This document shows, one piece after another, positions 20,560 to 36,775 of a DNA stretch of 64,000 nt. Numbering within the stretch: position 1 is the first letter of the stretch; every line of letters starts with the position of its first letter. The notes under the pieces were generated by a model. That model made no database searches and had not been told where the DNA came from. It saw nothing but the letters and a program-made list of their open reading frames with translations. The position numbers were made by a program, and so were the translations under genes. Origin of the DNA: Mycolicibacter algericus DSM 45454 (lineage in GTDB: Bacteria > Actinomycetota > Actinomycetes > Mycobacteriales > Mycobacteriaceae); contig NZ_MVHC01000005.1 of the NCBI RefSeq assembly GCF_002086455.1, positions 94,001-158,000 of the forward strand, given 5' to 3'.

Positions 20560-21779
20560 CGACGGGCTCCGGCGGTTCAGCGAGGTTCGACGCCGGAGAG
20601 GCGAAGCTGGAGCCGCCGTATCAACCTGCCGACTTCCGCGCCCGGGTACGCCAGTGGTGCGCCGACAACATCCCGGCGGACTGGCGCCGCACCCAGACCG
20701 GGGTCAGCGAGGCCGAGTTCGTCGACTTCCAGCGCCGCTGGTTCGCCACGCTGCACTCTGCCGGGTTCGCCGTGCCGCACTGGCCGCGCGAATGGGGCGG
20801 CGGCATGTCGGTGGCCGACCAGGCCGTGCTGTACCAGGAGCTGGCCGCCCACGACGCGCCGCGGCTGGTGCTGGCATTCGTCGGCATCCACCACGCGGCG
20901 GCCACCCTGCTGGCAGCGGGCACCGAGGAGCAGCGCCGCCGGCACCTGCCGGGCATCCTCGACGGCGAGATCTGGGTGCAGGGGTTCTCCGAGCCCGAGG
21001 CCGGCTCCGATTTGGCGTCGCTGCGCACCACCGCGCGCCGGGTGGGGGACGGCTACCTGGTCAATGGCCAGAAGCTGTGGGCCAGCGGCGCCAGTCACGC
21101 CCAGTGGTGCCTGCTGCTGGCCCGCACCGACCCGGAGGCCCCCAAACGTAAAGGGATCTCCTACTTCCTGCTCGACATGGCCACCCCCGGAGTGCAGGTG
21201 CGCCCGATCCGCAACGCCGTCGGCGATCAGCACTTCTGCGAGATCTTCCTCGACGACGTGGTGATCCCGGCGGCGAACCTGATCGGGGCCGAGAACACCG
21301 GCTGGCAGGTGGCGCAGGCGACGCTGGGCGCCGAACGCGGCATGACCATGCTCGAATTGGCCGAGCGGCTGGGCTGCGCGGGCTTTCGCTGGCTGGTGCA
21401 GGCCGCGCCGAGCGACGACCCGGTGGTGGCCGACAAGTTGGCGCAGTTGGAAACCGAGATCACCGGCCTGCGGGCGATGTGCCGACAGCTGGTGGCCGAC
21501 GTCGAGGCCGGCACGGCCGGACCCGCCGACGCCTCGATCGTGAAGCTCTACTACAGCGAGCTATTGCAGCGGCTGACCGACTTCGGCGCCGAGATCGGCG
21601 GTTTGGCCGCGCACACCGCACTGACCAAACCCCTGTCCAGCGGCTGGGAGTCGGGTTCCTGGGTGCTCGATTTCATCGGCTCCTGGGAGTGGACCATCCC
21701 CGGCGGCTCCAGCGAGATCCAGCGCACCATCATCGGCGAACGCGGCCTGGGCTTGCCGCGAGAACCGAGCCTGCCGTGA
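20556..21779 (+). CDS. Acyl-CoA dehydrogenase, alpha-type subunit (pair 2), with a repeat-encoded N-terminus
   Basis: A 407-residue acyl-CoA dehydrogenase. QGFSEPEAGSDLASLRTTARR (residues about 145-165) marks the FAD site, and LGAERGMTMLELAERLG holds the helix-G glutamate. Residues about 6-23 (GGSARFDAGEAKLEPPYQ) do not belong to the family: they are encoded by a 56-bp dispersed repeat (20571-20626) also found inside two other genes here. The start overlaps the previous stop by 4 bp. The insertion lies just after the initiation codon, where the fold tolerates extra residues. Confidence 0.88.
   Translation: MTTGSGGSARFDAGEAKLEPPYQPADFRARVRQWCADNIPADWRRTQTGVSEAEFVDFQRRWFATLHSAGFAVPHWPREWGGGMSVADQAVLYQELAAHDAPRLVLAFVGIHHAAATLLAAGTEEQRRRHLPGILDGEIWVQGFSEPEAGSDLASLRTTARRVGDGYLVNGQKLWASGASHAQWCLLLARTDPEAPKRKGISYFLLDMATPGVQVRPIRNAVGDQHFCEIFLDDVVIPAANLIGAENTGWQVAQATLGAERGMTMLELAERLGCAGFRWLVQAAPSDDPVVADKLAQLETEITGLRAMCRQLVADVEAGTAGPADASIVKLYYSELLQRLTDFGAEIGGLAAHTALTKPLSSGWESGSWVLDFIGSWEWTIPGGSSEIQRTIIGERGLGLPREPSLP
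20571..20626 (+). repeat. Dispersed 56-bp in-frame repeat, copy C
   Basis: It begins GGCGGTTCAGCGAGG, has the core GGAGAGGCGAAGCTGG and ends CCGCCGTATCAACC. It matches the copies at 34108-34163 and 36389-36444 at about 50 of 56 positions. In this gene it is read in the sense that gives GGSARFDAGEAKLEPPYQP, at the extreme N-terminus of an acyl-CoA dehydrogenase. It has diverged more than the other two, suggesting an older insertion. Confidence 0.85.
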
Positions 21780-22786
21780 CCACAACCGATTTCGCCGAAC
21801 TGCACGACGACCTTCGGGCCGTCGCCGCCGATGTGCTGGGCCGCGGCCGCGCCGTCGACTGGCCCACCATTGCCGACGTCGGCTGGGTCGGACTGGAGGT
21901 TCCCGAGGCCTTCGGCGGGGCCGGTGCGACGTTCGCCGAGGTCGCCGTGGTCTGCGAAGAACTGGGAAGGGCCGCCGTCGCCGCCGACTACCTCGGTAGC
22001 GCGGTGCTCACGGTGGGCGTGCTGAACACGCTGCAGCACAGTGCGGTTCGTGACCGATTGCTGACCGATGTCACCGCCGGCACGACACGGGTCGCCACCG
22101 TGATGGGTGGCTTCACCCTGGCCGCCGACGGGCGACTGTCCGGACGTGCCGACTTCGTTCCCGACGCCGACGGCGCCGATTTGCTGCTGGTGCTGGCCAC
22201 CGACCACACCGGCGCCGAGGTCGCCGTGGCCACCGACCTGCTCGCCGTCACTGCGCAGCCGGTGCTCGACCAGACTCGCCGGGTCGCCGCCGTGATCGCC
22301 GAGGGCGTGCGGGTGGCCGAGCCGTTGCGGTTCACCGGGAACCCCCGCTCGGTGCGAAACCGGGCGGCCGTCGCGGTGGCCTGCGACAGCCTCGGTTTGG
22401 CCGAGGCCATGCTGGCCGCCACCGTGTCGTATGCGCAGACCCGCCACCAGTTCGGCCGTCCCATCGGCTCCTTCCAGGCCGTCAAGCACGCATGCGCGGA
22501 CATGCTGGTGACGGTCTCGGTGGCCCGCGCCCTGGTGCGCGAGGCTGTCGACGCGGTGGCCACCACCGGCTTCGATGGCTCCGAGGCCGATGTCGCGGTG
22601 GCCATGGCGAAGTCGTATGCCTGCGGCGGCGCGGTCGAGGTCGTCGGCAAGGCGCTGCAGCTGCACGGCGGGATCGGCTACACGTGGGAGAGCGGCATCC
22701 ACGTCTATCTGAAACGCGCCGTGTTCAACCGGTCGCTGTTCGGGTCACCGGCAGCGCACCGCCGACATCTCGCTCAACGGTATTAA
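21776..22786 (+). CDS. Acyl-CoA dehydrogenase, beta-type subunit (pair 2)
   Basis: A 336-residue acyl-CoA dehydrogenase-like protein without the TEP-GSGSD FAD motif. It has an N-terminal domain with GWVGLEVPEAFGGAGATFAEVAVVCEELG (residues about 35-63) and the C-terminal TRHQFGRPIGSFQAVKHACADM and HGGIGYTWESGIHVYLKRA stretches. It is the likely partner of the alpha subunit encoded immediately upstream (GTG start overlapping by 4 bp). Together the four overlapping genes give two alpha/beta dehydrogenases, perhaps for successive oxidation steps. Confidence 0.85.
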   Translation: MTTTDFAELHDDLRAVAADVLGRGRAVDWPTIADVGWVGLEVPEAFGGAGATFAEVAVVCEELGRAAVAADYLGSAVLTVGVLNTLQHSAVRDRLLTDVTAGTTRVATVMGGFTLAADGRLSGRADFVPDADGADLLLVLATDHTGAEVAVATDLLAVTAQPVLDQTRRVAAVIAEGVRVAEPLRFTGNPRSVRNRAAVAVACDSLGLAEAMLAATVSYAQTRHQFGRPIGSFQAVKHACADMLVTVSVARALVREAVDAVATTGFDGSEADVAVAMAKSYACGGAVEVVGKALQLHGGIGYTWESGIHVYLKRAVFNRSLFGSPAAHRRHLAQRY

Positions 22787-22810
22787 CAAGTCAAGCAAGG
22801 AGTTTCGACT

Positions 22811-24517
22811 GTGGGTGTGCCCGTATATCGCCGGATCCTGGAGTTGTTCGAGGCCGAGGGCGTCAACACGCTGTTCGGCATCCCCGACCCCAACTTCGTG
22901 CACATGTTCGTCGAGGCCGAACAGCGCGGTTGGTCGGTGGTGGCGCCGCACCACGAGGAGAGCGCCGGGTTCATGGCCGAGGCGGCGTCGCGGATGACCG
23001 GGGCGCCCGGACTGTGCATCGGCACCCTGGGGCCCGGCGTGGCCAACATCGCCGGGGCGATGATGTGCGCCAAGGTGGAGAACTCCCCGGTGGTGTTCCT
23101 GGGCGGGCAGCGGGCCCGCATCACCGAGCGGCGAGTGCGGCGCGGGCGTATCCAATTCGTCCGCCAGGAAGAGCTTTTCGCGCCGTCGGTGAAGTACAGT
23201 GCGTCGATCGAGTACGCCGACCAGACCGATGAGATCGTGCACGAGGCGATCCGGCGGGCCCTGTCGGGCACGCCGGGCCCGGCCTATATCGAATACCCGT
23301 CGCACGTGATCCTCGATGAGCTCGATGTCGCCGGCCCGCCGGAGCCGCACCGCTACCGGCTGGTCAACCAGCGGGCCGGGGCGGCCGAGGTCGCCGAAGC
23401 AGCCGAGATCATCCGCAACGCGGCGAATCCGGTGCTGCTGGTGGGGCACGGGGTACACACCTCGCGCAGCGCGGCGGCGGTGCGCGAGCTCGCCGAACTG
23501 ATGGCGTGCCCGGTGATCCAGACCTCCGGCGGCACCGCGTTCATCCCCGGTCTGGAAGACCGCACCTTCCCCTACGGGTTCTCCCAATCGGCGGTCGAGG
23601 CGGTGGTGGCCTCCGACGTCTGTGTGGCGCTGGGCACCGAACTGGGCGAGCCGGTGCACTACGGCACCACCCGGCACTGGGCGGCCAAGAACGCCGAGCG
23701 CAAATGGATCTACGTCGAGCAGGACCCGATGGCGATCGGGGTGAACCGGCCCATCGACGTGCCGCTGGTGGGCGATCTGCGTGGCGTGGTACCCCAACTC
23801 GTGGCGGCACTCAAGCAGACCCCGCGCACCGCGCCGGCCGAGCTGGACCGCTGGATCAAACAGGACGCCGAGCAGCTCGCCGAGCTGGCCGAGACCGCAC
23901 CGACCGGGCGCAGCCCGGTGCACCCGGCACGCTACGTGGTCGAGGCCACCAAAGCGTTCCCCGCCGACGGCATCATGGTGCGCGACGGCGGCGCCACCGT
24001 CATCTTCCAGTGGACCTATTCACAGGCCAAACCGCACGACGTGATGTGGAACCAGAACTTCGGCCACCTGGGCACCGGCCTGCCGTACGCGGTGGGCGCC
24101 TCGGTCGCCGAGGGCGGCAAGCGGCCGGTGATGCTGCTGACTAGCGACTCGGCGTTCCTGTTCCACATCGCCGAGCTGGAGACCGCCGCCCGGCTGAAGC
24201 TGCCGCTGGTCTGCGTGGTCGGGGTGGACCACCAGTGGGGCCTGGAAGTCGGGGTGTACAAGCGCACGTTCGACCAGCCCTCGCCGCAGCCGGGGGTGCA
24301 CTGGAGCAAGGACGTCCGGTTCGACAAGATCGCCGAGGGCATGGGCTGCCACGGCGAGTACGTGCAAGACGAGACGGAGATCGGGCCGGCGATCAAGCGG
24401 GCCTACGCGGCGGGCGGGACCGCGGTCATCCACGTGTGCATCGACCCCAAGGCCAACTCGGAGGAGATGCCCAATTACGCCGAGTTCCGCACCTGGTACG
24501 CCGAAGGAACCCAATGA
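22811..24517 (+). CDS. Thiamine-diphosphate enzyme (acetolactate synthase/2-hydroxyacyl-CoA lyase superfamily) with altered cofactor motif
   Basis: A 568-residue ThDP enzyme with three domains. The activating glutamate is Glu49 in APHHEESAGFMAEAA, and a central Rossmann-like domain follows (VLLVGHGVHTSRSA). The C-terminal ThDP domain has TSDSAF...VVGVDHQWG (Asp446 to Asp473) where the canonical motif is GDGS...NN, so the metal-ligand Asn is Asp and both glycines are changed. Pyruvate-type, oxalyl-CoA-decarboxylase-type or 2-hydroxyacyl-CoA-lyase chemistry are options; the surrounding acyl-CoA genes favour C-C cleavage of an acyl-CoA. GTG 22811 is supported by AAGGAG 8 bp upstream. Confidence 0.82.
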   Translation: MGVPVYRRILELFEAEGVNTLFGIPDPNFVHMFVEAEQRGWSVVAPHHEESAGFMAEAASRMTGAPGLCIGTLGPGVANIAGAMMCAKVENSPVVFLGGQRARITERRVRRGRIQFVRQEELFAPSVKYSASIEYADQTDEIVHEAIRRALSGTPGPAYIEYPSHVILDELDVAGPPEPHRYRLVNQRAGAAEVAEAAEIIRNAANPVLLVGHGVHTSRSAAAVRELAELMACPVIQTSGGTAFIPGLEDRTFPYGFSQSAVEAVVASDVCVALGTELGEPVHYGTTRHWAAKNAERKWIYVEQDPMAIGVNRPIDVPLVGDLRGVVPQLVAALKQTPRTAPAELDRWIKQDAEQLAELAETAPTGRSPVHPARYVVEATKAFPADGIMVRDGGATVIFQWTYSQAKPHDVMWNQNFGHLGTGLPYAVGASVAEGGKRPVMLLTSDSAFLFHIAELETAARLKLPLVCVVGVDHQWGLEVGVYKRTFDQPSPQPGVHWSKDVRFDKIAEGMGCHGEYVQDETEIGPAIKRAYAAGGTAVIHVCIDPKANSEEMPNYAEFRTWYAEGTQ

Positions 24518-24518
24518 G

Positions 24519-24535
24519 TGAGAATGTTATTCTCA
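24519..24535. promoter_or_regulatory. Perfect palindromic operator TGAGAATGTTATTCTCA
   Basis: A perfect 7-3-7 palindrome one base after the stop of the ThDP gene and 49 bp before the next start. It marks a new promoter within an otherwise continuous gene row. Related 17-mers with the same spacing lie at 1758, 8156 and 34528, each before an acyl-CoA gene, which suggests one repressor controlling all of them. The motif is not the KstR or KstR2 box. Confidence 0.65.
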
Positions 24536-24584
24536 TTTCCGGCTAACGCATATCCCTGAGTGCAGCGACGAGCTGGAGGAGACC

Positions 24585-25775
24585 ATGCCCGAAGGAATGA
24601 GCTTCGAGCTGACCGAGGACCAGCAGCTGATCCGGCAGTCGGTCGCCGAGCTGGCGTCCAAGTTCGACGACCACTACTGGATGAGCAAGGACCAGGCGCA
24701 CGAATTCCCGCAGGAGTTCTACGACGCCATCGCCGGCGGCGGCTGGCTGGGCATGACCATCCCCGAGGCGTACGGCGGCCACGGACTGGGTATCACCGAG
24801 GCCACCATCCTGGCCGAGGAAGTGGCGCGTTCCGGCGGTGGCATGAACGCCGCCAGCGCCATCCACATGTCGATCTTCGGGATGCAGCCGGTGGTGGTGT
24901 TCGGCTCCGATGAGATGAAGGCCGAAACCCTGCCGCGCATCGTCAGCGGCGATCTGCACGTGTGCTTCGGCGTCACCGAACCGACCGCGGGACTCGATAC
25001 GTCACGTATCACCACGTTCGCCAAGCGGGACGGCAGCGATTATGTGGTCAACGGCCGCAAGGTGTGGATCTCCAAGGCCATCGAGTCCGAGAAGATCCTG
25101 CTGCTGACCCGCACCGAGTCCCGCGACGACGTGGAAAAGCGAGGGGGCAAACCCACCGAGGGCCTCACGCTGTTCCTCACCGATATCGACCGCGACCACA
25201 CCGACATCCGGCCGATCCCCAAGATGGGCCGAAATGCGGTGTCCTCCAACGAGGTCTTCATCGACGACCTGCGGGTACCGGCCGAACACCGGATCGGCGA
25301 AGAGGGCAAGGGCTTCTCCTACATCCTGCACGGGCTCAACCCGGAGCGCATGCTGATCGCCGCCGAGGCGCTCGGCATCGGCCGGGTCGCGCTGGACCGC
25401 GCGGTCAAGTACGCCAACGAGCGCGTGGTGTTCGACCGGCCGATCGGCATGAACCAGGGCATCCAGTTCCCGCTCGCCGACTCGCTGGCCCGCCTGGACG
25501 CCGCCGAGTTGATCCTGCGCAAGGCCACCTGGCTCTACGACAACGGCAAGTCCTGCGGTCGTGAAGCCAACATGGCCAAATATCTGTGTGCCGACGCCGG
25601 TTTCGCGGCGGCCGACCGCGCTTTGCAGACCCACGGCGGGATGGGCTACTCGGAGGAGTACAACATCTCCCGGTTCTTCCGGGAGTCCCGGTTGATGAAG
25701 ATCGCCCCGGTCAGCCAGGAGATGATCCTGAACTTCCTCGGCTCGCACGTGCTCGGGATGCCGAGGAGCTACTGA
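24585..25775 (+). CDS. Acyl-CoA dehydrogenase
   Basis: A 396-residue single-chain acyl-CoA dehydrogenase. Features in order: N-terminal helices, GGWLGMTIPEAYGGHGLG (about 52-69), FAD motif VCFGVTEPTAGLDTSRI (about 127-143), helix-G glutamate in LNPERMLIAAEALGIG (about 256-271), ANERVVFDRPIG (about 285) and HGGMGYSEEYNISRFFRE near the C-terminus. Glu in PERM takes the isovaleryl-CoA-dehydrogenase base position; the C-terminal base is missing (IAPVSQEM). The start follows GGAGGA by 5 bp. First gene of a five-gene operon under the 24519 operator. Confidence 0.92.
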   Translation: MPEGMSFELTEDQQLIRQSVAELASKFDDHYWMSKDQAHEFPQEFYDAIAGGGWLGMTIPEAYGGHGLGITEATILAEEVARSGGGMNAASAIHMSIFGMQPVVVFGSDEMKAETLPRIVSGDLHVCFGVTEPTAGLDTSRITTFAKRDGSDYVVNGRKVWISKAIESEKILLLTRTESRDDVEKRGGKPTEGLTLFLTDIDRDHTDIRPIPKMGRNAVSSNEVFIDDLRVPAEHRIGEEGKGFSYILHGLNPERMLIAAEALGIGRVALDRAVKYANERVVFDRPIGMNQGIQFPLADSLARLDAAELILRKATWLYDNGKSCGREANMAKYLCADAGFAAADRALQTHGGMGYSEEYNISRFFRESRLMKIAPVSQEMILNFLGSHVLGMPRSY

Positions 25776-26989
25776 TGACCGCACCGCTGGCCGGTGTCAC
25801 GGTGGTGGCCCTGGAGCAGGCGGTGTCCGCCCCGATGTGCACCCGCGCGCTGGCCGACTTCGGTGCGCGGGTGATCAAGGTGGAGAACCCCGACGGCGGC
25901 GACTTCGCCCGCTACTACGACGACGTGGTCGGTGGTCCCGGAGGCCAGGCGGCACACTTCGTCTGGGTCAACCGCGGCAAACAGTCGGTCACCCTGGATC
26001 TCAAAAGCGAGGCGGGACGCGAGGTGCTGCACCGGCTACTGGACACCGCCGACGTGCTGGTCTCCAATCTCGCACCGGGCGCCACCGCGCGGCTGGGGCT
26101 GTCGGCAACGGACATGGCAACCCGGCACCCGAACGTGATCGCCGTGGAGATCGACGGCTACGGCAGCGGCGGACCGCTGTCGCACAAGCGGGCCTACGAC
26201 CTGCTGGTGCAGGCCGAGTCCGGGGTGTGTTCGGTGACCGGCCGGCCGGGGGAGCCGGCCAAGCCCGGGCCGCCGGTGGCGGACGTGACCAGCGGCCTGT
26301 ACTCGGCGCTGTCGATCATGGCGCTGCTGATCGGTCGCAAGGGTGCGGGCAGCGATGAGCCGGCGCCGTCGGTGACCGTCAGCCTGTTCGACACCATGGC
26401 CGAGATGATGGGCTATCACCTGACCTATGCGCGGCACTCCGGCATCGAGCAGCAGCCGCTGGGCATGAGCTCACCGGCCGTGGCACCCTACGGCGCGTAT
26501 GCGACCGCCGACGGGCACACCGTGGTGCTGGGCACCACCAACGACCGGGAGTGGCAGCGGCTGGCCCGCGAGCTGCTGGGCCGCGACGACCTGGCCGACG
26601 ACCCGCGCTTCGCCGGCAACGCCGACCGGGTGGCGAACCGGGCGATCCTGGACGAGGCGATCGGCCAGTGGTGCGCCCGCCACGACCTGGCCAAGATCCA
26701 GCACGCAGCCGATGCCGCCGGAATCGGCAACGCCCGCTACAACACCGCCGGCGATGTGCTGGCACACCCGCAGCTGTCCGAGCGCGACCGGTGGCGCTCG
26801 ATCGACACCCCGGCCGGGCCGATCCCGTCGTTGCTGCCGCCGCCGGTGATCGCCGGCTTCGAGCCGCCGATGGGGCCGGTGCCGGCCCTCGGCGAGCACA
26901 CCGAGGCGGTGCTGGGCGAACTGGGTTTCACCGACACCGAGATCGCCGAGCTGCGCGGCCAGCGGGCGATCGGGCAGGCTGGCAGCTGA
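25775..26989 (+). CDS. Type III CoA-transferase (CaiB/BaiF family)
   Basis: A 404-residue family III CoA-transferase. GVTVVALEQAVSAPMCTRALADFGARVIK (residues 7-35) gives the family start, VNRGKQSVTLDLKSE the second signature, and Asp170 in PVADVTSGLYSALSIM the predicted catalytic aspartate. The ATG overlaps the dehydrogenase stop (TGATG), and the stop overlaps the next ATG. It would transfer CoA to the acid that feeds this operon or recycle CoA from a product acid. Confidence 0.92.
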   Translation: MTAPLAGVTVVALEQAVSAPMCTRALADFGARVIKVENPDGGDFARYYDDVVGGPGGQAAHFVWVNRGKQSVTLDLKSEAGREVLHRLLDTADVLVSNLAPGATARLGLSATDMATRHPNVIAVEIDGYGSGGPLSHKRAYDLLVQAESGVCSVTGRPGEPAKPGPPVADVTSGLYSALSIMALLIGRKGAGSDEPAPSVTVSLFDTMAEMMGYHLTYARHSGIEQQPLGMSSPAVAPYGAYATADGHTVVLGTTNDREWQRLARELLGRDDLADDPRFAGNADRVANRAILDEAIGQWCARHDLAKIQHAADAAGIGNARYNTAGDVLAHPQLSERDRWRSIDTPAGPIPSLLPPPVIAGFEPPMGPVPALGEHTEAVLGELGFTDTEIAELRGQRAIGQAGS

Positions 26990-27777
26990 TGACACCCGAC
27001 ACCGACGTGCTGCTGCGCACCGATCGCGACGGGGTGCGGACCCTCATCCTGAACCGGCCCGCCCGCAAGAACGCGATCAACCCGCAGCTGTGGCGGGCGC
27101 TGCGCGATGCGCTGCGCGATGCCGCCGACGACCGCGACTTGCGCGCCCTGGTCATCACCGGCGCGGGCGGCGCGTTCTGTTCGGGCGCGGACATCGGCAC
27201 CGGTGACGACACCCACCCGGTGCACAAGCTGCAGCGGCTCACCGACGTCGCGCTGGCGCTGCACGAGCTGACGATCCCGACCATCGCCAAGGTGACCGGG
27301 GTGGCGGTCGGGGCGGGCTGGAACCTGGCGCTGGGCTGCGATCTGGTGGTCGCCACACCGGAATCGACGTTCTGCCAGATCTTCTCGAAGCGGGGTCTGT
27401 CGATCGACCTGGCCGGTTCGTGGCTATTGCCCAAGATCGTCGGCCTGCAGCAGGCCAAGCGGTTGGCGCTGCTGGCCGAGACCATCGACGCCACCGAAGC
27501 CCAGGCGCTGAACCTGGTGACGTGGGTGATCGGCGCCGGTGAGATCGACGGGTTCGTCGACGATCTCGCCGACCGGCTGGCCGCCGGCCCGCCGCGGGCG
27601 CTGGCGCAGACCAAGGCGCTGCTCAATCAGGGCGCCGACGCTACCCTGCCCGAGGCACTGGCCAACGAATCCCGAGCCCAGTTAGTCAATTTCGCGGGAA
27701 CCGACGCCGCGGAAGCCTATGCGGCCTTCGCCGAGAAGCGGACACCACGCTTCAGCGGCGGATGGCCTGCCAAGTGA
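26989..27777 (+). CDS. Enoyl-CoA hydratase/isomerase family protein (PaaG-like)
   Basis: A 262-residue crotonase. Oxyanion-hole segments are FCSGADIG (residues 63-70) and GVAVGAGWNLALGCD (104-118). The hydratase glutamates are replaced by Asn112 and Phe132, but Asp140 in GLSIDLAGSWLLP sits at the position of the catalytic Asp of PaaG and dienoyl-CoA isomerases. Double-bond isomerisation is therefore likelier than hydration. It is translationally coupled to the CoA-transferase before it and lies 13 bp from the thiolase gene. Confidence 0.88.
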   Translation: MTPDTDVLLRTDRDGVRTLILNRPARKNAINPQLWRALRDALRDAADDRDLRALVITGAGGAFCSGADIGTGDDTHPVHKLQRLTDVALALHELTIPTIAKVTGVAVGAGWNLALGCDLVVATPESTFCQIFSKRGLSIDLAGSWLLPKIVGLQQAKRLALLAETIDATEAQALNLVTWVIGAGEIDGFVDDLADRLAAGPPRALAQTKALLNQGADATLPEALANESRAQLVNFAGTDAAEAYAAFAEKRTPRFSGGWPAK

Positions 27778-27790
27778 GATCGGAGTAGAG

Positions 27791-28936: not shown

Positions 28937-28966
28937 GCCGGCCGGATCGGCTAAGGAGACACCGTC

Positions 28967-30115: not shown

Positions 30116-30185
30116 GACGGTCTCGCGCCGCGGTTGTGAGTCCGTAACCAAAGATTCTTCGATGAGACCCTTGTCACAGCGCGCA

Positions 30186-30217
30186 AACCAACCTACTGTG
30201 TGTTCACTTGGTTGGTT
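30186..30217. promoter_or_regulatory. Inverted repeat upstream of a TetR gene, probable autoregulatory site
   Basis: AACCAACC (30186-30193) and GGTTGGTT (30210-30217) are perfect 8-bp arms separated by 16 bp, ending 15 bp before the GTG start of the TetR gene. TetR proteins usually bind palindromes in their own promoter. The sequence differs from the TGAGAATG motif, so this regulator probably has a separate target set. Confidence 0.55.
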
Positions 30218-30232
30218 GATCGAAGGAGACCG

Positions 30233-30847
30233 GTGACCTCACCCCGGCCGTACGCCACACTGCTCGCCAAAGGCGAGGACCGCAGGCAGCGGATTCTGTT
30301 GGCAGCCGAGCACCTGCTGGCCCGCAACGGCTGGCGCAACACCTCGCTGGCGCAGATCGCCCGCAACGCCGGGGTCAGCGCGGCGGGCCTGCTGCACCAC
30401 TTCGCGTCCAAGGAACAGCTGCTGCACGCGGTGCTCGACGCCCGCGACGCCGACGACGACACGCACGCCGACCGCAGCGGCGACCTCATCGAGGAGATCC
30501 AACGGGTAGCCGACCGATTCACCCGGGCACCCGAGTTGGTCGGAACCTTCACCGTGCTGCTCGCCGAGAACGTGCTGCCCGAGGCGCCGCTGCACGATCG
30601 GATGCTCAAGCGCTACCACGCCGCGGTCGCCATCGTCGCCGACCTGATCCGCTGCGGCCAGGACTCCGGCCGCTACCGCACGGATTTCGACCCGGCCATC
30701 AAGGCCGCAGAGATTCTCGCCTTTATCAACGGAATGGAGATGTCATGGCTACTGGATCCCTCGATACCGCTGGCCGAGGTGTTCACGGCCTACACGGAAA
30801 CACTGGCCCGCGACTTCGCTCCACTGGAAAAGGACGTCCTGCAATGA
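30233..30847 (+). CDS. TetR-family transcriptional regulator
   Basis: A 204-residue TetR protein. The HTH occupies residues about 18-62 (ILLAAEHLLARNGWRNTSLAQIARNAGVSAAGLLHHFASKEQLL), followed by a helical effector domain. GTG 30233 is chosen because GAAGGAG lies 5 bp upstream; earlier in-frame codons would overlap the inverted repeat. It is the first gene of a unit continuing into two unknown genes and a DoxX gene, with a 4-bp overlap to the next. Confidence 0.9.
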   Translation: MTSPRPYATLLAKGEDRRQRILLAAEHLLARNGWRNTSLAQIARNAGVSAAGLLHHFASKEQLLHAVLDARDADDDTHADRSGDLIEEIQRVADRFTRAPELVGTFTVLLAENVLPEAPLHDRMLKRYHAAVAIVADLIRCGQDSGRYRTDFDPAIKAAEILAFINGMEMSWLLDPSIPLAEVFTAYTETLARDFAPLEKDVLQ

Positions 30848-31380
30848 CCCCCGACCCCGACATGCGGTACCGGTTCGACATCGTCGGCCACAGTGTCGTC
30901 GACATCGTCACGGCGGCGGGCGGCTGGCTCTACGACCGCGCGACGGCGGGCTGGGACGTCAGCGTGATGATGCTCGATGCCTTCGAGGGCACCGACACCC
31001 GCCCGCTGCAGATCCTCGGCGCCCGGGTGCTGGACCTGGCGTCGGTGCTCACCCACTGGGAGCAGTGGCCGCACCCGCAGACCATCGCCGTCTGCGCCGA
31101 GATGTTCGACGGCCACGCACGCGTGCGCCAGGGCGTGCTCGACGCGCTGGAACACAGCAGCACCGAGGTGACGCTGTGGGGCGACGTGCCGGCCGAGTTG
31201 GATCGCGACGTCGACACCCGCCAGCACCGGCTCAGCGCGGCAGCCCGTGCGTTCAAGGCCCAGGCGCTGCGAGCGGCGGGCATCGACCCGAAAGGCGTTG
31301 CCGGATCCGGTCACGTCGAGATGTTCCGCTGCGGGCCGGCGTGTGCGTCGGTCGCGGCAGACTTGAGCCCGGCGAGTTGA
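30844..31380 (+). CDS. Conserved hypothetical protein downstream of TetR
   Basis: A 178-residue soluble protein I do not recognise. It starts MTPDPDMRYRFDIVGHSVVDIVTAAGGWLYDRATAGW and contains LQILGARVLDLASVL and a His- and Arg-rich C-terminal half (DVDTRQHRLSAAARAFKAQALRA). No signal peptide, membrane segment or known catalytic motif is visible. The ATG overlaps the TetR stop by 4 bp, so it is very likely co-regulated and possibly linked to the TetR ligand. Confidence 0.7.
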   Translation: MTPDPDMRYRFDIVGHSVVDIVTAAGGWLYDRATAGWDVSVMMLDAFEGTDTRPLQILGARVLDLASVLTHWEQWPHPQTIAVCAEMFDGHARVRQGVLDALEHSSTEVTLWGDVPAELDRDVDTRQHRLSAAARAFKAQALRAAGIDPKGVAGSGHVEMFRCGPACASVAADLSPAS

Positions 31381-31396
31381 GCGGCGCGATCGCACA

Positions 31397-32095
31397 TTGA
31401 CCGAGAACGTGCCGCTGTCGCGTTCCCTGGTGCTGGTGACCGATTATCGGGTTCCGGATCCGGCCAGGGTCTGGCCGCTGTTGCAGCGCCACCGCGACAG
31501 CCTGGCTCACCTGGGCGCCAGCCACGTGCTGGTCTACACCTCGTCGGTCGATCCCGGCCGGGTGCTGGCACTGATGTCGATCCGCGCCGCGCAGCCGGTC
31601 ACCGATCTGCTCCGCGACGAGGCGTTCATGGCCTGGTTCGACGCGGTCGGCGTCGACGACATCCCCGCCGTCTTCGCCGGTTCGCTGGCGGAGCGCATCG
31701 AGCTGGCCGACAGTTCGAGCCTGACTGAACCGCCGGCCGAACCGCCGGGCGTGGTCGTCGCGGCGGTGGCCGAAGTCGTCGACGCCGAGGCGCTCATCGA
31801 CCATGTCCACGACACCGCGGACGCCTTCGCTGCGGCCGGCATCCGGAAGGTCTTGATATTCCAGGCCTTTGACAATCCTCGCGAGGTGTTCATGCTGCAG
31901 GAGGCCGCTGAGGAAGTGGGCGAGGCCGGCGCCGGGCAGTGGATCAGCCAACCTGAGTTCGCCGCCGAGTGGGTCACCCGGGCCGGGGTCGGCGTCTACC
32001 CGCCGGTTTTCGTCGGCCGGCTGGCGCACCTGATGCGCGTGGCGGATCAGCAAGAGGACCAAGAAGATCGAGCAGAAGGAGAACCCATTCGATGA
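31397..32095 (+). CDS. Hypothetical protein with two similar halves (dimeric alpha/beta-barrel-like)
   Basis: A 232-residue protein starting at a TTG. It appears to consist of two related units of about 95 residues. Unit one runs from VLVTDYRVPDPARVWPLLQRH to DDIPAVFAGSLAERIEL; unit two runs from VVVAAVAEVVDAEALIDHVHD to YPPVFVGRLAHLMRV. Each has the length and alternating pattern of a ferredoxin-like alpha/beta barrel domain. The linker SSSLTEPPAEPPG resembles the reverse reading of the 56-bp repeat (SSSLAEPPG). Function unknown; it lies between the TetR unit and a DoxX gene, overlapping the latter by 4 bp. Confidence 0.65.
   Translation: MTENVPLSRSLVLVTDYRVPDPARVWPLLQRHRDSLAHLGASHVLVYTSSVDPGRVLALMSIRAAQPVTDLLRDEAFMAWFDAVGVDDIPAVFAGSLAERIELADSSSLTEPPAEPPGVVVAAVAEVVDAEALIDHVHDTADAFAAAGIRKVLIFQAFDNPREVFMLQEAAEEVGEAGAGQWISQPEFAAEWVTRAGVGVYPPVFVGRLAHLMRVADQQEDQEDRAEGEPIR
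31715..31734 (-). repeat. Possible decayed part-copy of the 56-bp repeat
   Basis: TCGAGCCTGACTGAACCGCC matches one end of the 56-bp repeat (read on plus as in the copy at 36389-36444) at 18 of 20 positions, and the encoded SSSLTEPP parallels SSSLAEPP of that copy. The remaining two thirds of the repeat cannot be traced. It falls in the linker between the two halves of the host protein. Chance similarity is possible. Confidence 0.35.
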
Positions 32096-32598
32096 CCGCT
32101 TACGGCGTGGGACTGTTGATCGTGCGGCTCTGCCTGGGCCTGACCATGGCCGCGCACGGCTACAACAAGATCTTCTCCGGGGGCCGGATCCCCGGCACCG
32201 CACGGTGGTTCGACAGCATCGGTATGCGGCCCGGTCTCTTCCACGCCCGGGTGGCCGCCGGAACCGAGATCGCCGCCGGGCTGGGCCTGGCCGCCGGCCT
32301 GCTCACGCCGATTCCTGCGGCGGGCTTCGTCGCCCTGATGCTGGTGGCGGCCTGGACAGTACACCGCGACAACGGCTTCTTCATCGTCAAGAGCGGCTGG
32401 GAGTACAACCTGGTACTGGCCGCCGTCGCGGTCGGCATCGCCATGCTCGGCGCCGGGCCGCTCAGCCTGGACCACCTGCTGTTCGGGCAGAACTGGTGCG
32501 ACGGGTGGACCGGGCTGCTGATCGCGGCCGGGCTCGGGCTCGCCGGTGGCATCGGCCAACTGCTGGTGTTCTACCGGCCGGTGCGCGAGCGGGCCTGA
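32092..32598 (+). CDS. DoxX-family integral membrane protein
   Basis: A 168-residue protein with four hydrophobic segments (residues about 5-25, 60-80, 85-100 plus 105-122, and 140-160). The pattern GLLIVRLCLGLTMAAHGYNKIFSGG and GTEIAAGLGLAAGLLTPI is typical of the DoxX/SURF4 family. Members are small quinone- or redox-linked membrane proteins whose biochemical role is poorly defined. It is coupled by a 4-bp overlap to the preceding gene. Confidence 0.85.
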   Translation: MTAYGVGLLIVRLCLGLTMAAHGYNKIFSGGRIPGTARWFDSIGMRPGLFHARVAAGTEIAAGLGLAAGLLTPIPAAGFVALMLVAAWTVHRDNGFFIVKSGWEYNLVLAAVAVGIAMLGAGPLSLDHLLFGQNWCDGWTGLLIAAGLGLAGGIGQLLVFYRPVRERA

Positions 32599-32608
32599 CC
32601 GCCCGCGG

Positions 32609-32911
32609 TCAGTCGCTGGCCGGCAGCGGCTTGGCTTCCTTGAGGGCCAACGGCACGGTGCCGACGCTCAGGGCACCGGCGCCGGCCTTGGTCACCAAGA
32701 CCTCGGCGCCGGCGTCGTCGACGTAGCGCTTGCCCATCACCGCGCCGCCGGCGAAGTCGGGATCCAGGGTCGCCTCCGGCGAGGCGCTGTCCTCCAGGGG
32801 CACCATCGGGGCCCCACCGGCGCGCAGGTCATCGAGGCTGTCGGCGGTCTTCACCACGATGACCTGGGTGTCGCACACCTGGCTCTTCAGACGGGTACCG
32901 GACTTGATCAT
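32609..32911 (-). CDS. Small conserved hypothetical protein next to a FadD gene
   Basis: A 100-residue acidic protein. It starts MIKSGTRLKSQVCDTQVIVVKTADSLDDLRAGG and ends with a strand-rich KRYVDDAGAEVLVTKAGAGALSVG segment. No domain is recognised; it looks like a small beta-barrel. It lies 43 bp downstream of the FadD gene on the same strand, so it probably shares its transcript and regulation. Translation from ATG 32911 is supported by codon bias and by lack of a longer sensible frame. Confidence 0.65.
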   Translation of the reverse strand: MIKSGTRLKSQVCDTQVIVVKTADSLDDLRAGGAPMVPLEDSASPEATLDPDFAGGAVMGKRYVDDAGAEVLVTKAGAGALSVGTVPLALKEAKPLPASD

Positions 32912-32954
32912 TGCGTTCCTTCGGCTTGGAAAACGAGGTGGACTACTTCGCGGC

Positions 32955-34499
32955 TTACAGGTCGTCGAGGAGTTCCCGGCGCAGCACCTTGCCGGTCGGG
33001 GTGGTCGGCAGCTCCGAGCGGAAGACGATCCGATCCGGGGTGCGCGATCCTCGCAGCTGCTCTCGAACATACTCGCGCAGCGCCTCCGGCTCCGGTGACG
33101 CACCGGGCGCCGCAACCACGCACGCGACGATGATCTGGCCCCACTCCGGATCCGGGGCGCCGACCACGGCGACCTCACGGACCTGCGGGTGCTCGACCAG
33201 CACGTCCTCGATCTCGGCGGGCGCGATGTTCTCGCCGCCGCGGATGATGGTGTCGTCGGAGCGGCCGACAATGTACAGGTATCCCTCATCGTCCAGCACG
33301 GCGAGATCACGGGTCGGGAACCAGCCGTCGGCGTCGAGCACCGACCCCATGCCGGTGTAGGTGCCGGAGACCTGCTCGCCCCGGAGGAACAACTCGCCGG
33401 GCTCTCCGGCCGCAACCGGCCGGCCCTCGTCGTCGCGGATGACCACCTCGATGCCCGGGACCGGGCGGCCGACCGACCCCAGCCGCTTGCGGACGGCTTC
33501 GTCGGTGGCCGCGTACGCCGTGCGGTGGTCGTCGGGGGTGAGCACCGCGACCGTCGAACTGGTCTCGGTCAGGCCGTAGGCGTTGACGAAGCCGACGTCG
33601 GGCAGCAGGTCCAGCGCCCGGCGCACCAACGGCAGCGCAACCTTGGAGCCACCGTAGGCCAGGTTGCGCAGCGTCGGCAGTGGAGCCGGGTGGGCTTCCA
33701 GTTCCGACACGATGCGCTCCAGCATCGTCGGGACGACGGTGGCGGTGGTCACCGCCTCATCTTTGACCAGCCGGATCCACTCGGCGGGGCTGAAGCGACG
33801 CAGATAGACCGACTTGCGTCCGGCGTAGAGGTTGCTCAGCGCCGCTCCGACACCGGCGATGTGGTAGGGCGGCACGCAGATCAGCGCCGCGTCCTCGGGG
33901 CCCGCCGAACCGAACTCGACGGTCTGAGTGATGTAACTGGTCAGGTTGTTGTGGGTCAGCTCAACGGCTTTGGGCGCCGAGGTGGTACCCGAGGTGAACA
34001 GCACGACCGCGACGTCGTCGGGGTCCGGCCACTGCACCTCCGGGGTGGTGGTGCGCGCCCGGGCGCAGAAGGTGGCCGAATCGATCGGGCCGATCCCGAT
34101 GTCGCCGGGTTTATGCGGCGGTCCCAGCTTTGCCTCTCCTTCGTCGAGCCTTGCTGAACCGCCGGCATCGCCGACCAGGTCGAGGTATTCCTTGTCGACG
34201 ACGACCAGCGGTTGCGGCAGCCGGCCGATCAGCTCGCGCAGCGCCGGGCCGCTGAGCCGGTAGTTGAGCGGGGCGAAGGGCCGCCCGGCCCGCGCCGCGG
34301 AGAACAACAGCAGCGGCAGCATGTCGCCGCCCATCCCGATGTAGGCCACGCTGCTCGCGCCGGTCTCGTTGATCACCCCGGCGCCGGCGTCGGCGAGGGC
34401 ATTGAGTTCGGCGGTGGTGTAGCGGGTGGTCTCCGAGACGACCGCGACCCGGTCTGGGTCGGCCGACACCGCCATTTCCAGCAACAATGAAATGCTCAC
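32955..34499 (-). CDS. Acyl-CoA synthetase (FadD-like) carrying an in-frame repeat insert
   Basis: A 514-residue ANL ligase. Motifs: FTSGTTSAPKAVELTHNN (residues 168-185), NAYGLTETSSTVAVLT, the GSVGRPVPGIEV region, DGWFPTRDLAVLDDEGYL, the hinge GRSDDTIIRGGENIAPAEIED and TPTGKVLRREL. Residues about 113-131 (GGSARLDEGEAKLGPPHKP) interrupt the family pattern between VDKEYLDLVGDA and the region leading to the P-loop. They are encoded by a 56-bp dispersed repeat, presumably a surface loop. GTG 34499 follows GGGGAG by 7 bp. It is divergent from the crotonase operon, with an operator-like site between. Confidence 0.9.
   Translation of the reverse strand: MSISLLLEMAVSADPDRVAVVSETTRYTTAELNALADAGAGVINETGASSVAYIGMGGDMLPLLLFSAARAGRPFAPLNYRLSGPALRELIGRLPQPLVVVDKEYLDLVGDAGGSARLDEGEAKLGPPHKPGDIGIGPIDSATFCARARTTTPEVQWPDPDDVAVVLFTSGTTSAPKAVELTHNNLTSYITQTVEFGSAGPEDAALICVPPYHIAGVGAALSNLYAGRKSVYLRRFSPAEWIRLVKDEAVTTATVVPTMLERIVSELEAHPAPLPTLRNLAYGGSKVALPLVRRALDLLPDVGFVNAYGLTETSSTVAVLTPDDHRTAYAATDEAVRKRLGSVGRPVPGIEVVIRDDEGRPVAAGEPGELFLRGEQVSGTYTGMGSVLDADGWFPTRDLAVLDDEGYLYIVGRSDDTIIRGGENIAPAEIEDVLVEHPQVREVAVVGAPDPEWGQIIVACVVAAPGASPEPEALREYVREQLRGSRTPDRIVFRSELPTTPTGKVLRRELLDDL
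34108..34163 (-). repeat. Dispersed 56-bp in-frame repeat, copy A
   Basis: Read on the minus strand it begins GGCGGTTCAGCAAGG and ends GACCGCCGCATAAACC. It differs from the copy at 36389-36444 at about four positions. It lies inside the FadD gene in the orientation that reads GSARLDEGEAKLGPP. The reading frame stays open through it. The inner ends GGCGGT and ACCGCC are inverted repeats of each other. Confidence 0.88.
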
Positions 34500-34527
34500 C
34501 GCTCGGCTCCCCGTAATCCGTCGTGGA

Positions 34528-34544
34528 TGAGAACGACATTATCA
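34528..34544. promoter_or_regulatory. Operator-like site, copy 4 of the shared 17-bp motif
   Basis: On the minus strand the sequence is TGATAATGTCGTTCTCA, identical at 14 of 17 positions to the palindrome at 24519. It is in the 111-bp gap between the divergent FadD gene (start 34499) and crotonase gene (start 34611), so one bound regulator could affect both. Confidence 0.5.
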
Positions 34545-34610
34545 TTTTGTGGTAGTCGCGCTACGGCAGGAGTCGGTCCGGGGACCGCCATCGGTACGCT
34601 GACGTGCGTC

Positions 34611-35555
34611 ATGATCAGCGTGGTCGACCTCGATGGCAACCCCGACGCCGAGCCCGGCGCCGGGATCATCATCGCGACGGGTAGCCGCTTCGACACCGCG
34701 CACGCCGAACACTGGTTGCAGCGCGCCACCTTCACCCTCTCGGAGGCCGAGGCCACGGATCGCCGGATCATCACCGTCGGATCGGTGACCGAGGCACTCG
34801 CCGACATCGCCGATCAGTGCCGGCGCCGGCCGCATGCGGCCGCGATCTGCGACGACGTGCTGCGCGCAGTGGACCCGAACGCGCCGGCACGAGCCGGAGT
34901 GATCACCGAATCACTGGCCTACTCGGTGCTGCAGGCCGGCCCGGAGTTCGCCGGCTGGCTGGCCGAGCGCGGCCCGGCCACCGTGCCCGACACCAGCGAG
35001 CCGGTGCTGATCGACCGGGACGGCGACACGCTGCTACTGCGGTTCAACCGGCCGCAGCGCCACAACGCCTTCAGCAATGCGATGCGGGCCGCGCTGCTCG
35101 ACGGCCTGGCCGTGGCCGCAGCCGACACCTCGATCGACGAGGTGGTGCTGTCGGGGGCCGGCCGCTCCTTCTGCAGCGGCGGCGATCTGGCCGAGTTCGG
35201 CGGCTTCACCGATGTGGCCAGCGCCCACCTGGCCCGCACCCGCCACAGCCCGGCGCTGGCGCTGGACGCGCTGACCGCCCGGCTCGGCGCGCGCTGCCGC
35301 GCCGACGTGCACGGCCAGGTGCTGGGCAGCGGACTGGAGATGGCGGCCTTCTGCGGCCGGGTGCGCGCACACCCCGAGGCGGTGCTGGGCCTGCCCGAGC
35401 TCAACCTCGGGCTGATTCCGGGTGCCGGAGGCACCGTCAGCATCACCCGCCGCATCGGACGGTGGCGCACCGGCTATCTGATCCTGTCGGGGCGCACCAT
35501 CGACGCGTCGACCGCGCTGCGGTGGGGGCTCGTCGACGAGGTCGGGAGCCCCTGA
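34611..35555 (+). CDS. Enoyl-CoA hydratase with N-terminal extension
   Basis: A 314-residue protein. Residues about 1-125 form an extension not seen in ordinary hydratases, and a crotonase domain follows from VLIDRDGDTLLLRFNRP. Both hydratase glutamates are present: Glu243 in GSGLEMAA and Glu263 in LPELNLGLIPGAGG. This is the only crotonase in the left region with a complete classical hydratase site. ATG 34611 is chosen because upstream in-frame codons overlap the operator; a start near residue 100 cannot be excluded. It overlaps the following CoA-transferase start by 1 bp. Confidence 0.85.
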   Translation: MISVVDLDGNPDAEPGAGIIIATGSRFDTAHAEHWLQRATFTLSEAEATDRRIITVGSVTEALADIADQCRRRPHAAAICDDVLRAVDPNAPARAGVITESLAYSVLQAGPEFAGWLAERGPATVPDTSEPVLIDRDGDTLLLRFNRPQRHNAFSNAMRAALLDGLAVAAADTSIDEVVLSGAGRSFCSGGDLAEFGGFTDVASAHLARTRHSPALALDALTARLGARCRADVHGQVLGSGLEMAAFCGRVRAHPEAVLGLPELNLGLIPGAGGTVSITRRIGRWRTGYLILSGRTIDASTALRWGLVDEVGSP

Positions 35556-36775
35556 TGGGCGGGGCGGCCTGGGGTGCGTCGGGACTGGCCTGGCTGACCG
35601 GGCAGCCCGACGGCCCGCCGGATTTCTCCCGCGCCGCGGTGCTGCAGCACGCCACCCAGGTGCTGGGCCGCTTCACCACCGCCACCGGTGTCGACGCCGA
35701 CGCCGCGACGCTGCTGGCCGGCCGTGCCGGCCTGCTGGGCTTCAGCCGCGCCGGGCGCGTCTCGGCCGGGGGCGCCTCGCGGCTGTTGGCCGCCGCCGAC
35801 GGCTGGTGGGCGATCACGTTGTCGCGCGCCGACGACGTCGACGCCGTACCCGCCCTCATCGAAGCCGACTGCCCGGAGCCGTGGACAGCTGTTGCCGGGT
35901 GGGCGTCGCAGCGACCGGTGGCCGAGGTCGTCGAGCGGGCGCGGTTGCTCGATCTGCCCGCCGCCGCACTGGGGGAGAGCGCCGCCGCGACACCGTCGAT
36001 CCGCCGGGCCGGGCCTCGCGGTCCGGCCCGTGACGCGCACGGCGCCCTGGTCGTCGACCTGACCTCACTGTGGGCCGGCCCGCTGTGCGGGCAGCTGTTG
36101 ACGCAGGCCGGGGCCACCGTCATCAAGGTGGAAAACCCGTCCCGCCCGGACGGCACGCGGCGGGGCCCGAAGGCCTTCTTCGACTGGATGAACAGCGGAA
36201 AACTGTCCTGCACAGCAGATTTCGATCGTGACACCGCCTTCCTCGCCCGGTTGCTGGATGCCGCCGATGTCGTGCTGGAGGGCTCCCGTCCGGCGGCGCT
36301 GGCCCGCCGCGGTCTCGGCCCGTTCGACGTAGCGGGCCGGCCGGGGCGGGTGTGGCTGCAGATCACCGCGCACGGCGGCGAGGCCCCCGGTTCATACGGC
36401 GGTCCCAGCTTCGCCTCTCCTTCGTCGAGCCTCGCTGAACCGCCGGGGTTCGGCGACGACACGGCGGTGGCGGGCGGGTTGGTGGGCCGCGACGGGGCGG
36501 CGGATCCGGTGTTCTGCGGCGACGCCATCGCCGACCCGCTGACCGGTATCGAAGCCGCCGTCGCGGTGCTCGACTCGCTGGCCGGCGGCGGCGGTGAGGT
36601 GATCACGCTGTCGCTGGCCGCCGTCGCCGCACGCTACGCCGCACTGCCGCTGCATCCCGTCGGCGACTACCCGGTGTCGCCGCCGGCCCGCCCGCATATC
36701 GCGGGCACCGGCCCGCGGCTGGGAGCCGACAACGCCCGGGCCGGCGAACTCGTGAATGCGGCATCGCGGTGCTGA
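35555..36775 (+). CDS. Type III CoA-transferase with N-terminal extension and in-frame repeat insert
   Basis: A 406-residue protein. Residues about 1-160 are poorly conserved and end in a proline/arginine-rich linker. The CaiB-like core starts at GALVVDLTSLWAGPLCGQLLTQAGATVIK, with predicted catalytic Asp327 in CGDAIADPLTGIEAAV. Residues about 280-298 (YGGPSFASPSSSLAEPPG) are encoded by the 56-bp repeat in the orientation opposite to the two other copies, and separate HGGEAPGS from FGDDTAVAGG. The family core survives on both sides, so the insert is probably tolerated in a loop. It may be a half-length transferase needing a partner. Confidence 0.85.
   Translation: MGGAAWGASGLAWLTGQPDGPPDFSRAAVLQHATQVLGRFTTATGVDADAATLLAGRAGLLGFSRAGRVSAGGASRLLAAADGWWAITLSRADDVDAVPALIEADCPEPWTAVAGWASQRPVAEVVERARLLDLPAAALGESAAATPSIRRAGPRGPARDAHGALVVDLTSLWAGPLCGQLLTQAGATVIKVENPSRPDGTRRGPKAFFDWMNSGKLSCTADFDRDTAFLARLLDAADVVLEGSRPAALARRGLGPFDVAGRPGRVWLQITAHGGEAPGSYGGPSFASPSSSLAEPPGFGDDTAVAGGLVGRDGAADPVFCGDAIADPLTGIEAAVAVLDSLAGGGGEVITLSLAAVAARYAALPLHPVGDYPVSPPARPHIAGTGPRLGADNARAGELVNAASRC
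36389..36444 (-). repeat. Dispersed 56-bp in-frame repeat, copy B
   Basis: Minus-strand reading begins GGCGGTTCAGCGAGG, contains GGAGAGGCGAAGCTGG and ends GACCGCCGTATGAACC. The terminal hexamers GGTTCA and TGAACC, and the inner GGCGGT and ACCGCC, are inverted repeats. The host gene reads the plus strand, giving YGGPSFASPSSSLAEPPG without a stop. Both strands of the element are thus open in the frames used by hosts. Confidence 0.88.

Follow-up and report, generated by a model that had tools for sequence, protein, structure and literature searches.

Described systems of short repeats in and around genes

Rickettsia palindromic elements (RPEs) are presented, in a 2024 review, as palindromes of about 150 bp that lie in frame in unrelated metabolic genes and extend the encoded proteins, with many more copies elsewhere; the same review calls a similar role in protein evolution 'conceivable' for other prokaryotes (PMC10969869). 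Here we describe a 57-bp hairpin repeat from a 64,000-nucleotide stretch of Mycolicibacter algericus DSM 45454 (contig NZ_MVHC01000005.1, positions 94,001 to 158,000; this whole stretch is called the window, and positions are counted within it). The repeat lies in three catabolic genes of the window, and belongs to a tiny, gene-free hairpin family occupying at least 47 sites of the genome. We read it as likely a non-autonomous mobile element, predicted to be pasted in a single orientation into sites that resemble its own junction (GAACC-CGGCG, the hyphen separating the two halves), and give this reading a probability of roughly 0.52. A first-pass annotation, made from the letters of the window, had likened the repeat to RPEs in concept, and the palindromes found in frame in unrelated genes bear this comparison out.

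Three other kinds of repeat are close enough to need comparison. Repetitive extragenic palindromic (REP) or GTAG sequences are short dispersed stem-loops, sometimes intragenic, notably in replication and repair genes, and the same source gives the RPEs of R. conorii a terminal CGTC tag (PMC3733652). QMITE1 and QMITE2 of Coxiella, which are miniature inverted-repeat transposable elements (MITEs), are non-autonomous inverted-repeat elements with about 50 copies per family, some in frame in open reading frames (ORFs), QMITE2 measuring 150–190 bp with 7–11-nt direct repeats (PMC5896051); single in-frame copies of a REP or a MITE are thus on record elsewhere (PMC3733652, PMC5896051). In mycobacteria, interspersed repeats of 46–101 bp, among them the mycobacterial interspersed repetitive units (MIRUs), occupy 41 loci of M. 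tuberculosis (PMC3914561), and the variable-number tandem repeat (VNTR) 4155 in leuA resembles our element by description in having 57-bp units of 19 residues (PMC2704214).

Compared by description with RPEs, the present element differs in its length of 57 bp (with shorter and 78-bp forms), its GAACC-CGGCG target, its tandem arrays and its actinobacterial host, and the CGTC tag is at neither end of its consensus, the unit ends being CGGCGG and CATGAACC. With REPs and their associated tyrosine transposases (RAYTs) it shares short dispersed stem-loops, and its hosts include a UvrD/PD-(D/E)XK protein and a DinG-like helicase, with PcrA/UvrD elsewhere; unlike them it forms head-to-tail arrays, has no Y1_Tnp transposase in its own genome and lacks GTAG, a tag sought at the hairpin foot and absent from the consensus of 45 sites, where GAACC stands before the core and CATGAACC after it. 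Like the QMITEs it appears non-autonomous, has some in-frame copies and carries terminal inverted repeats (CGGCGGTTCAGC and GCTGG(G)ACCGCCG, with covariation); unlike them it is 57 bp long and is bordered on each side by a fixed junction motif, not by a clean target duplication, with no parent insertion sequence seen. The variable tandem copy number of MIRUs and VNTRs is found too, in arrays of 2–7 units and in an extra unit-sized stretch of a homologue named M. sinensis. On this comparison the element would work like RPEs in kind, failing the tags and the enzyme that define REP/RAYT systems and the tag of the R. conorii RPEs. We found no description of it in the open-licence full-text literature, a coverage that mostly leaves out subscription papers.

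Three copies in the window

The copies and their host genes are as follows.

20570..20626, plus strand: copy 1 of the 57-bp unit (core 20570-20618, tail 20619-20626)
20556..21779, plus strand: host of copy 1, an acyl-CoA dehydrogenase with Pfam acyl-CoA dehydrogenase N, M and C domains, reading MTTGSGGSARFDAGEAKLEPPYQPADFRARV from the ATG at 20556
34108..34164, minus strand: copy 2 of the unit (core 34116-34164, tail 34108-34115), coding GGSARLDEGEAKLGPPHKP
32955..34499, minus strand: host of copy 2, an AMP-binding (FadD-type) acyl-CoA ligase with the insert at residues 113-131
36389..36445, minus strand: copy 3 of the unit (core 36397-36445, tail 36389-36396), whose host reads the opposite strand
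35555..36775, plus strand: host of copy 3, a CoA-transferase of family III with the insert PGSYGGPSFASPSSSLAEP

All three stand where the first-pass annotation had put them, by sequence and by a covariance model scored over every window position, which gave E values of 2.9e-21, 5.2e-20 and 2.4e-17 (the three were among the 63 sequences behind the model) and 0.0026 for the next match. The best other 57-mer of the window agrees with copy 3 at 31 of 57 positions. The annotated length of 56 bp gives way to 57 bp, and the annotated identity of about 50 to 52 of 56 fits two of the three pairs (50 and 52) and misses the third (47). Copies 2 and 3 are internal to coding regions as had been claimed, and Pfam domain matches span the insert in both hosts, in the peptide frame for copy 2 and in the opposite frame for copy 3. 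Copy 1 is instead an N-terminal extension of the acyl-CoA dehydrogenase, for the start codon that we chose (ATG 20556). In an AlphaFold model of the FadD protein, of which we used only the confidence profile, the insert has no secondary structure and the predicted local distance difference test score (pLDDT) is below 50 at residues 112-135 (model mean 73.6, with other weak stretches too); the peptide of the unit is predicted to be a flexible loop.

The next-best window match of the covariance model, at 57408-57457 on the plus strand, is possibly a decayed copy, or chance.

The unit and its hairpin

Alignment of the copies from the genome itself gives a repeat unit of 57 bp (19 codons), made up of a 49-bp hairpin core, with the consensus CGGCGGTTCAGCGAGGCTCGACGNNGGAGAG(G/C)CGAAGCTGG(G/A)ACCGCCG, and an 8-bp tail that is mostly CATGAACC. 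The inverted repeat noticed at the ends by the first-pass annotation is real, in an amended form: CGGCGGTTCAGC pairs with GCTGG(G)ACCGCCG in a bulged stem-loop, with one G bulged. Where units abut, the junction TGAACC-CGGC-GGTTCA is an inverted repeat in itself. Cores come in sizes of 28, 49 and 70 bp, and since these differ by 21 bp each the reading frame is kept across the size classes. Rfam gave no match over window positions 20000-37000 up to E 1.

Covariation was assessed in a set of 63 sequences, comprising 50 of the 73 distinct units of the genome (our choice, in most cases one or two from each site), together with 13 taken from other genomes. In this set 93.4% of cells of the structure were paired, with 15 double-change cells against 5.6 ± 1.4 in shuffles (0 of 500 shuffles as high; slid structures at most 5), and five double-changed pairs (1 of 500 shuffles as high; slid structures at most 4). 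The outer stem in 60 ungapped units of the genome gave 7 double changes against a shuffle maximum of 5, with 95% of cells paired in register; adding 24 distinct foreign units (83 distinct in all) raised this to 11, where shuffles reached at most 6 and slides at most 8. The outer-stem pairs covary, and the two arms show concerted changes (for example CGGTGG alongside CCACCG, or CAGCGG alongside CCGCTG), while the inner stem taken alone did not rise above shuffles. Selection on the hairpin could produce such covariation, as could copying of one arm from the other, and the data do not tell the two apart.

Copies across the genome and their reading frames

A profile search of the window and of 40 stretches of the genome, fetched around pattern and BLAST hits, returned 84 matches at 47 sites (a lower bound), of which 29 are single copies and 18 are tandem arrays of 2–7 units, two of them including a partial unit; the period is 57 bp, or 56 at some sites. 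Copies lie in both orientations, in genes and between genes, the genic ones being a minority. Five more places, with divergent, long or short forms, came from pattern searches made afterwards:

C49:3.0 kb: long form
C39:11.9 kb, C2:69.8 kb and C19:23.9 kb (28-bp core): 28-bp-core or divergent places
C64:181.4 kb: variant unit

With a codon model trained on the window genes, the best frame was the same on both flanks at 14 of the 47 sites, and one of these contains a stop, leaving 13 sites that are read through. Twelve of the 13 are in ORFs with Pfam domains, the thirteenth ORF having no domain match, and the hosts are diverse: a THUMP-like-domain protein, a metallo-beta-lactamase-fold protein, a UvrD/PD-(D/E)XK protein (two units), a pyridine-nucleotide oxidoreductase, two AMP-binding proteins, MurD, an ABC transporter, methylmalonyl-CoA mutase, a P-type ATPase, a DinG-like helicase and the CoA-transferase. 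Ten of the 13 read the GGSARLDEGEAKLGPP frame and one each reads the three other stop-free frames; the two stop-containing frames are unused. Copies near gene starts include the one at the window acyl-CoA dehydrogenase and a six-unit array at hisF.

As a separate observation, three hosts are of helicase type: a UvrD-like protein with a nuclease domain (L071), a DinG-like protein (L102) and a PcrA/UvrD protein (L294).

Empty and occupied orthologous sites

Relatives lacking the unit were found at sites both inside and outside the window, orthologous stretches having been obtained for a minority of the 47 sites. Among FadD homologues, an insert-like peptide occurs by pattern in none of the best 120 of 7899 and is absent in the 40 that were aligned; the nearest homologue (P0001), 98.4% identical over 495 aligned residues, lacks exactly the 19 residues. 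Of the 120 CoA-transferase homologues listed, at least 5 have the insert (P0121-P0124 by pattern, and the partial sequence P0128 by eye among 45 aligned), and two others (P0125 and P0126) are 19 residues shorter at the insert, with the flanks of P0125, AHGGEA and PGFGDD, identical. In P0122, named Mycolicibacter sinensis, 26 additional residues adjoin the insert, a length equal to that of the 78-bp form; this is recent variation. In murD the insert is present in our genome and in G022, and the site is empty by 57 bp in 4 of 10 relatives (G308, G347, G149 and G350); apparent 3' remnants such as HES are left in G291, G069, G371 and G016, and G073 differs in the loop. At the DNA level, occupied sites exceed their clean empty alleles by one unit (57 bp at C1:83.5 kb) or a multiple (171 bp, 3 x 57, at C20:217 kb). 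Two further sites differ by 48 and 79 bp with other changes adjacent, and some sites are occupied in a relative too, or rearranged.

The first-pass annotation had proposed a dispersed, peptide-coding mobile repeat, and had suggested a consensus search of the genome and alignment with insert-free orthologues. Both bear it out: there are many further copies, genic and intergenic and in both orientations, and alignment yields exact 19-residue gaps in MurD, FadD and the CoA-transferase, so that neither a segment shared by the orthologues of all three window hosts nor a want of further copies was found. These sequence comparisons make mobility of the units likely.

Target preference

Ten empty alleles with a readable junction, picked by us, were scored for their best match to GAACCCGGCG, the unit-to-unit junction. 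They matched 77 of 100 letters, against a mean of 54.3 for nearby controls, and none of 100,000 control draws was as high; the reverse complement of the target scored 54 against 54.6, so that the preference is in one orientation. Occupied sites agree: at 45 of the 47 (two with partial end units were skipped) the flanks favour GAACC ahead of the core and CGGCG behind the tail, position -1 being C in 33 of them, position -4 A in 23 and position -5 G in 24. The left half of the GAACC-CGGCG target equals the right end of the unit, and the right half its left end.

The first-pass annotation had also asked about target duplication, and we considered a simple one because copy 2 lies between similar 9–12-bp stretches. 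Net gains at clean sites are 57 or 171 bp, and the junction copies at a site share some site-specific letters, agreeing beyond chance and far from fully. No full duplication of the target is seen; the in-register signal is weak, and a partial duplication may be present.

How the units may have spread

In the reading that we favour, a circular or single-stranded hairpin copy would be inserted at a junction-like site by a recombinase or transposase acting in trans. A circular copy would carry the junction TGAACCCGGCGGTTCA, and the inserted unit would end between two copies of the junction motif, because the left half of the target equals the right end of the unit and the right half the left end. 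Intragenic units would likely be tolerated, their length being a multiple of three and their peptide a predicted flexible loop; arrays would then likely grow by local slippage; and old copies would persist, as in PcrA/UvrD, or appear to erode by in-frame deletions.

Several points weigh against this reading. Neither a mobilising enzyme nor a movement event was identified among the data examined, and Y1_Tnp (PF01797) has 0 matches in the genome itself and is absent from 15 of the 17 carriers searched. Only five of the ten empty alleles stand out singly from their controls (fraction of controls as good at most 0.013), the other five not (0.10 to 0.44), and the target motif, though it is the unit junction, was chosen after some junctions had been seen. 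Sites 33 and 23 differ from their empty counterparts by 56 and 60 bp, and copies 2 and 3 differ from the DNA of G022 and G016 by 66 and 51 bp, not 57, the remainder being, as we read it, separate neighbouring indels. Copy 1 has no clean empty allele, and what G308 has at site 23 (CATGAACCCGGCG) may be a footprint instead of a virgin target. For the hairpin, a +2 slide of the outer stem in the 60 ungapped units also gives 7 double changes, with 39% of cells paired. Finally, the two junction copies at a site are not independent: comparing the five letters ahead of the core with the five that end the tail gives agreement at 115 of 225 positions against 95.3 for re-paired sites (P = 0.0004), and at 65 of 145 against 56.3 for single-copy sites alone (P = 0.03), while the core start agrees with the right flank at 169 of 270 against 162.0 (P = 0.001). 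As controls for the junction letters, shifts of +1 and +2 gave nothing, and a shift of -1 gave nothing in all sites or single-copy sites and P = 0.03 in arrays.

These shared letters argue for homology-guided copying or partial duplication and against clean integration of a circle. They lowered our probability for the favoured reading from about 0.6 to 0.52, made template switching somewhat more probable than before, though still less so than the favoured reading, and made an ambitious site-specific version of the mobile element, given below, slightly more doubtful than before.

Template switching in replication or repair, with no dedicated enzyme, is the strongest alternative and one that we hold to be quite possible. 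A stalled GAACC end would pair with an existing unit, copy 57 bp and switch back within the motif, and the same process would correct the hairpin arms and make the arrays. It accords with the lack of a Y1 transposase in the genome, with the target homology of about 5–10 bp and with arrays of near-identical units; the concerted arm changes are the expected trace of arm-to-arm templating, and partial, in-register letter sharing between the two junction copies of a site is expected if switch points lie inside the motif. It has more difficulty with the single units at 29 of the 47 sites, one of them absent from a near-identical homologue, which in our judgement exceeds what template switching is usually credited with, and with the strong lineage restriction, which suggests a clade-specific factor.

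The more ambitious version of the mobile element would make it a mycobacterial counterpart of the protein-coding palindromes of Rickettsia. It would be a mobile hairpin of 19 codons that preserves the frame and undergoes site-specific recombination wherever its own junction is present in copy. It would keep adding short linker peptides to core enzymes (MurD, PcrA/UvrD, acyl-CoA ligases) and entering a riboswitch, would grow by nested hairpin steps of 21 bp, and would owe its movement to a kind of recombination system that is not so far known to work on DNA this short. We advance this only tentatively.

It is improbable that the repeat is instead a functional peptide module or regulatory RNA hairpin, spread by its usefulness to hosts, for example as a flexible linker or a transcript-end hairpin. 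Stem covariation, the retention of a 26-codon form in PcrA/UvrD of several mycobacteria and the 26-residue units (four and part of another) that follow one another in an E2 linker would suit such a module, but hosts read four frames and hence different peptides, the orthologues of a single gene gain, keep, erode or lack the insert, and genic copies are in the minority.

We also considered whether the leuA VNTR belongs to the same family. The element peptide, written twice, matched no PDB chain up to E 10; the PDB presumably holds a full-length M. tuberculosis LeuA, whose repeat we take to read differently. The search thus provides indirect evidence against the two being one family.

Least probable is a VNTR- or MIRU-type repeat whose copies have only expanded and contracted in place after old duplications, for although tandem units occur at 18 of the 47 sites and a 57-bp, 19-residue VNTR is described in M. 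tuberculosis leuA (PMC2704214), 29 of the 47 sites hold a single copy, copies lie in both orientations in unrelated genes, and the emptiness of relatives at many compared sites already contradicts it.

Candidate sources of mobility

Mobilisation by a RAYT or IS200-type enzyme is not supported, Y1_Tnp, the only family searched, being missing from the genome itself and from 15 of 17 carriers. Y1_Tnp was positive in 3 of the 20 genomes searched, two of them carriers (G002, G086 and G180; L194-L203): the one non-carrier has nine matches and the two carriers one each, of 147 and 148.3 bits, and these near-equal scores make an ordinary IS200-type insertion sequence the likely source in the carriers. 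A composite element at a cluster of copies (C19:45-53 kb) was rejected after nine ORFs were examined and no transposase appeared among them; four matched TerC, a glycosyltransferase, DUF2304 and a HAD/cation ATPase, and five had no match. Matches to the unit ends in the genome, fetched at eight places among the matches listed, were short or full units or unrelated sequence, and at none of them did a transposon end share the unit ends. Phage, plasmid and viral-contig searches, from which records near our genome may have been left out, gave no match, so that no phage or plasmid vehicle is visible.

Distribution and the long and short forms

At E <= 1e-4 the covariance model matched 51 of 396 genomes of the same genus, 24 of them with at least 8 matches; with 14 candidates scored per genome, the counts are lower bounds. 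In an order-wide sample searched with strict filters, matches occurred in 8 of 298 genomes and 1 of 76 genera, all in the same genus, and the other 75 genera gave none. All 8 named stretches with the exact 37-bp consensus are Mycolicibacter, and the dense carriers that could be named are Mycolicibacter (the M. terrae complex), for which the element may supply variable-number markers. The case is a dense one in mycobacteria: the clade has many complete genomes, and there are core enzymes as hosts, empty alleles, a target motif and a series that looks like erosion. Two questions become testable with it, namely by what means such elements move when no transposase is visible, and whether host enzymes are altered by the added peptides.

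Genomes with mostly weak or few matches contributed 19 stretches. In 9 of these the repeat is found in the PcrA/UvrD helicase, between the motifs DEYQDTN and VGDADQS; it is long in seven, short in one and truncated in one (four were translated and the others placed by matching flanks). The remaining stretches have it elsewhere. The form in this helicase of other mycobacteria is 78 bp or 26 codons long (for example in the helicase gene at L294 1440-3848, plus strand). The full helicase insert is present in 13 of 120 listed homologues, several of them named M. gordonae or M. paragordonae; other listed homologues keep fragments such as GGPPNQPG, which look like in-frame erosion. In G381 a 2-oxoacid dehydrogenase E2 (L296 1431-3044, plus strand) has tandem units of 26 residues, four of them and part of another, in the linker that follows its lipoyl domain. 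A cobalamin riboswitch (RF00174, E 8.3e-6; L286 391-567, minus strand) holds a 28-bp-core form in one of its peripheral loops, the repeat being near 474-502.

At the place of copy 1 the neighbourhood itself has changed: G016 and G022 have an enoyl-CoA hydratase gene of about 0.78 kb (L142 2828-3610 and L138 5485-6267) between two acyl-CoA dehydrogenase genes, and this gene, missing in the window genome, where copy 1 occupies that place, was probably lost by deletion.

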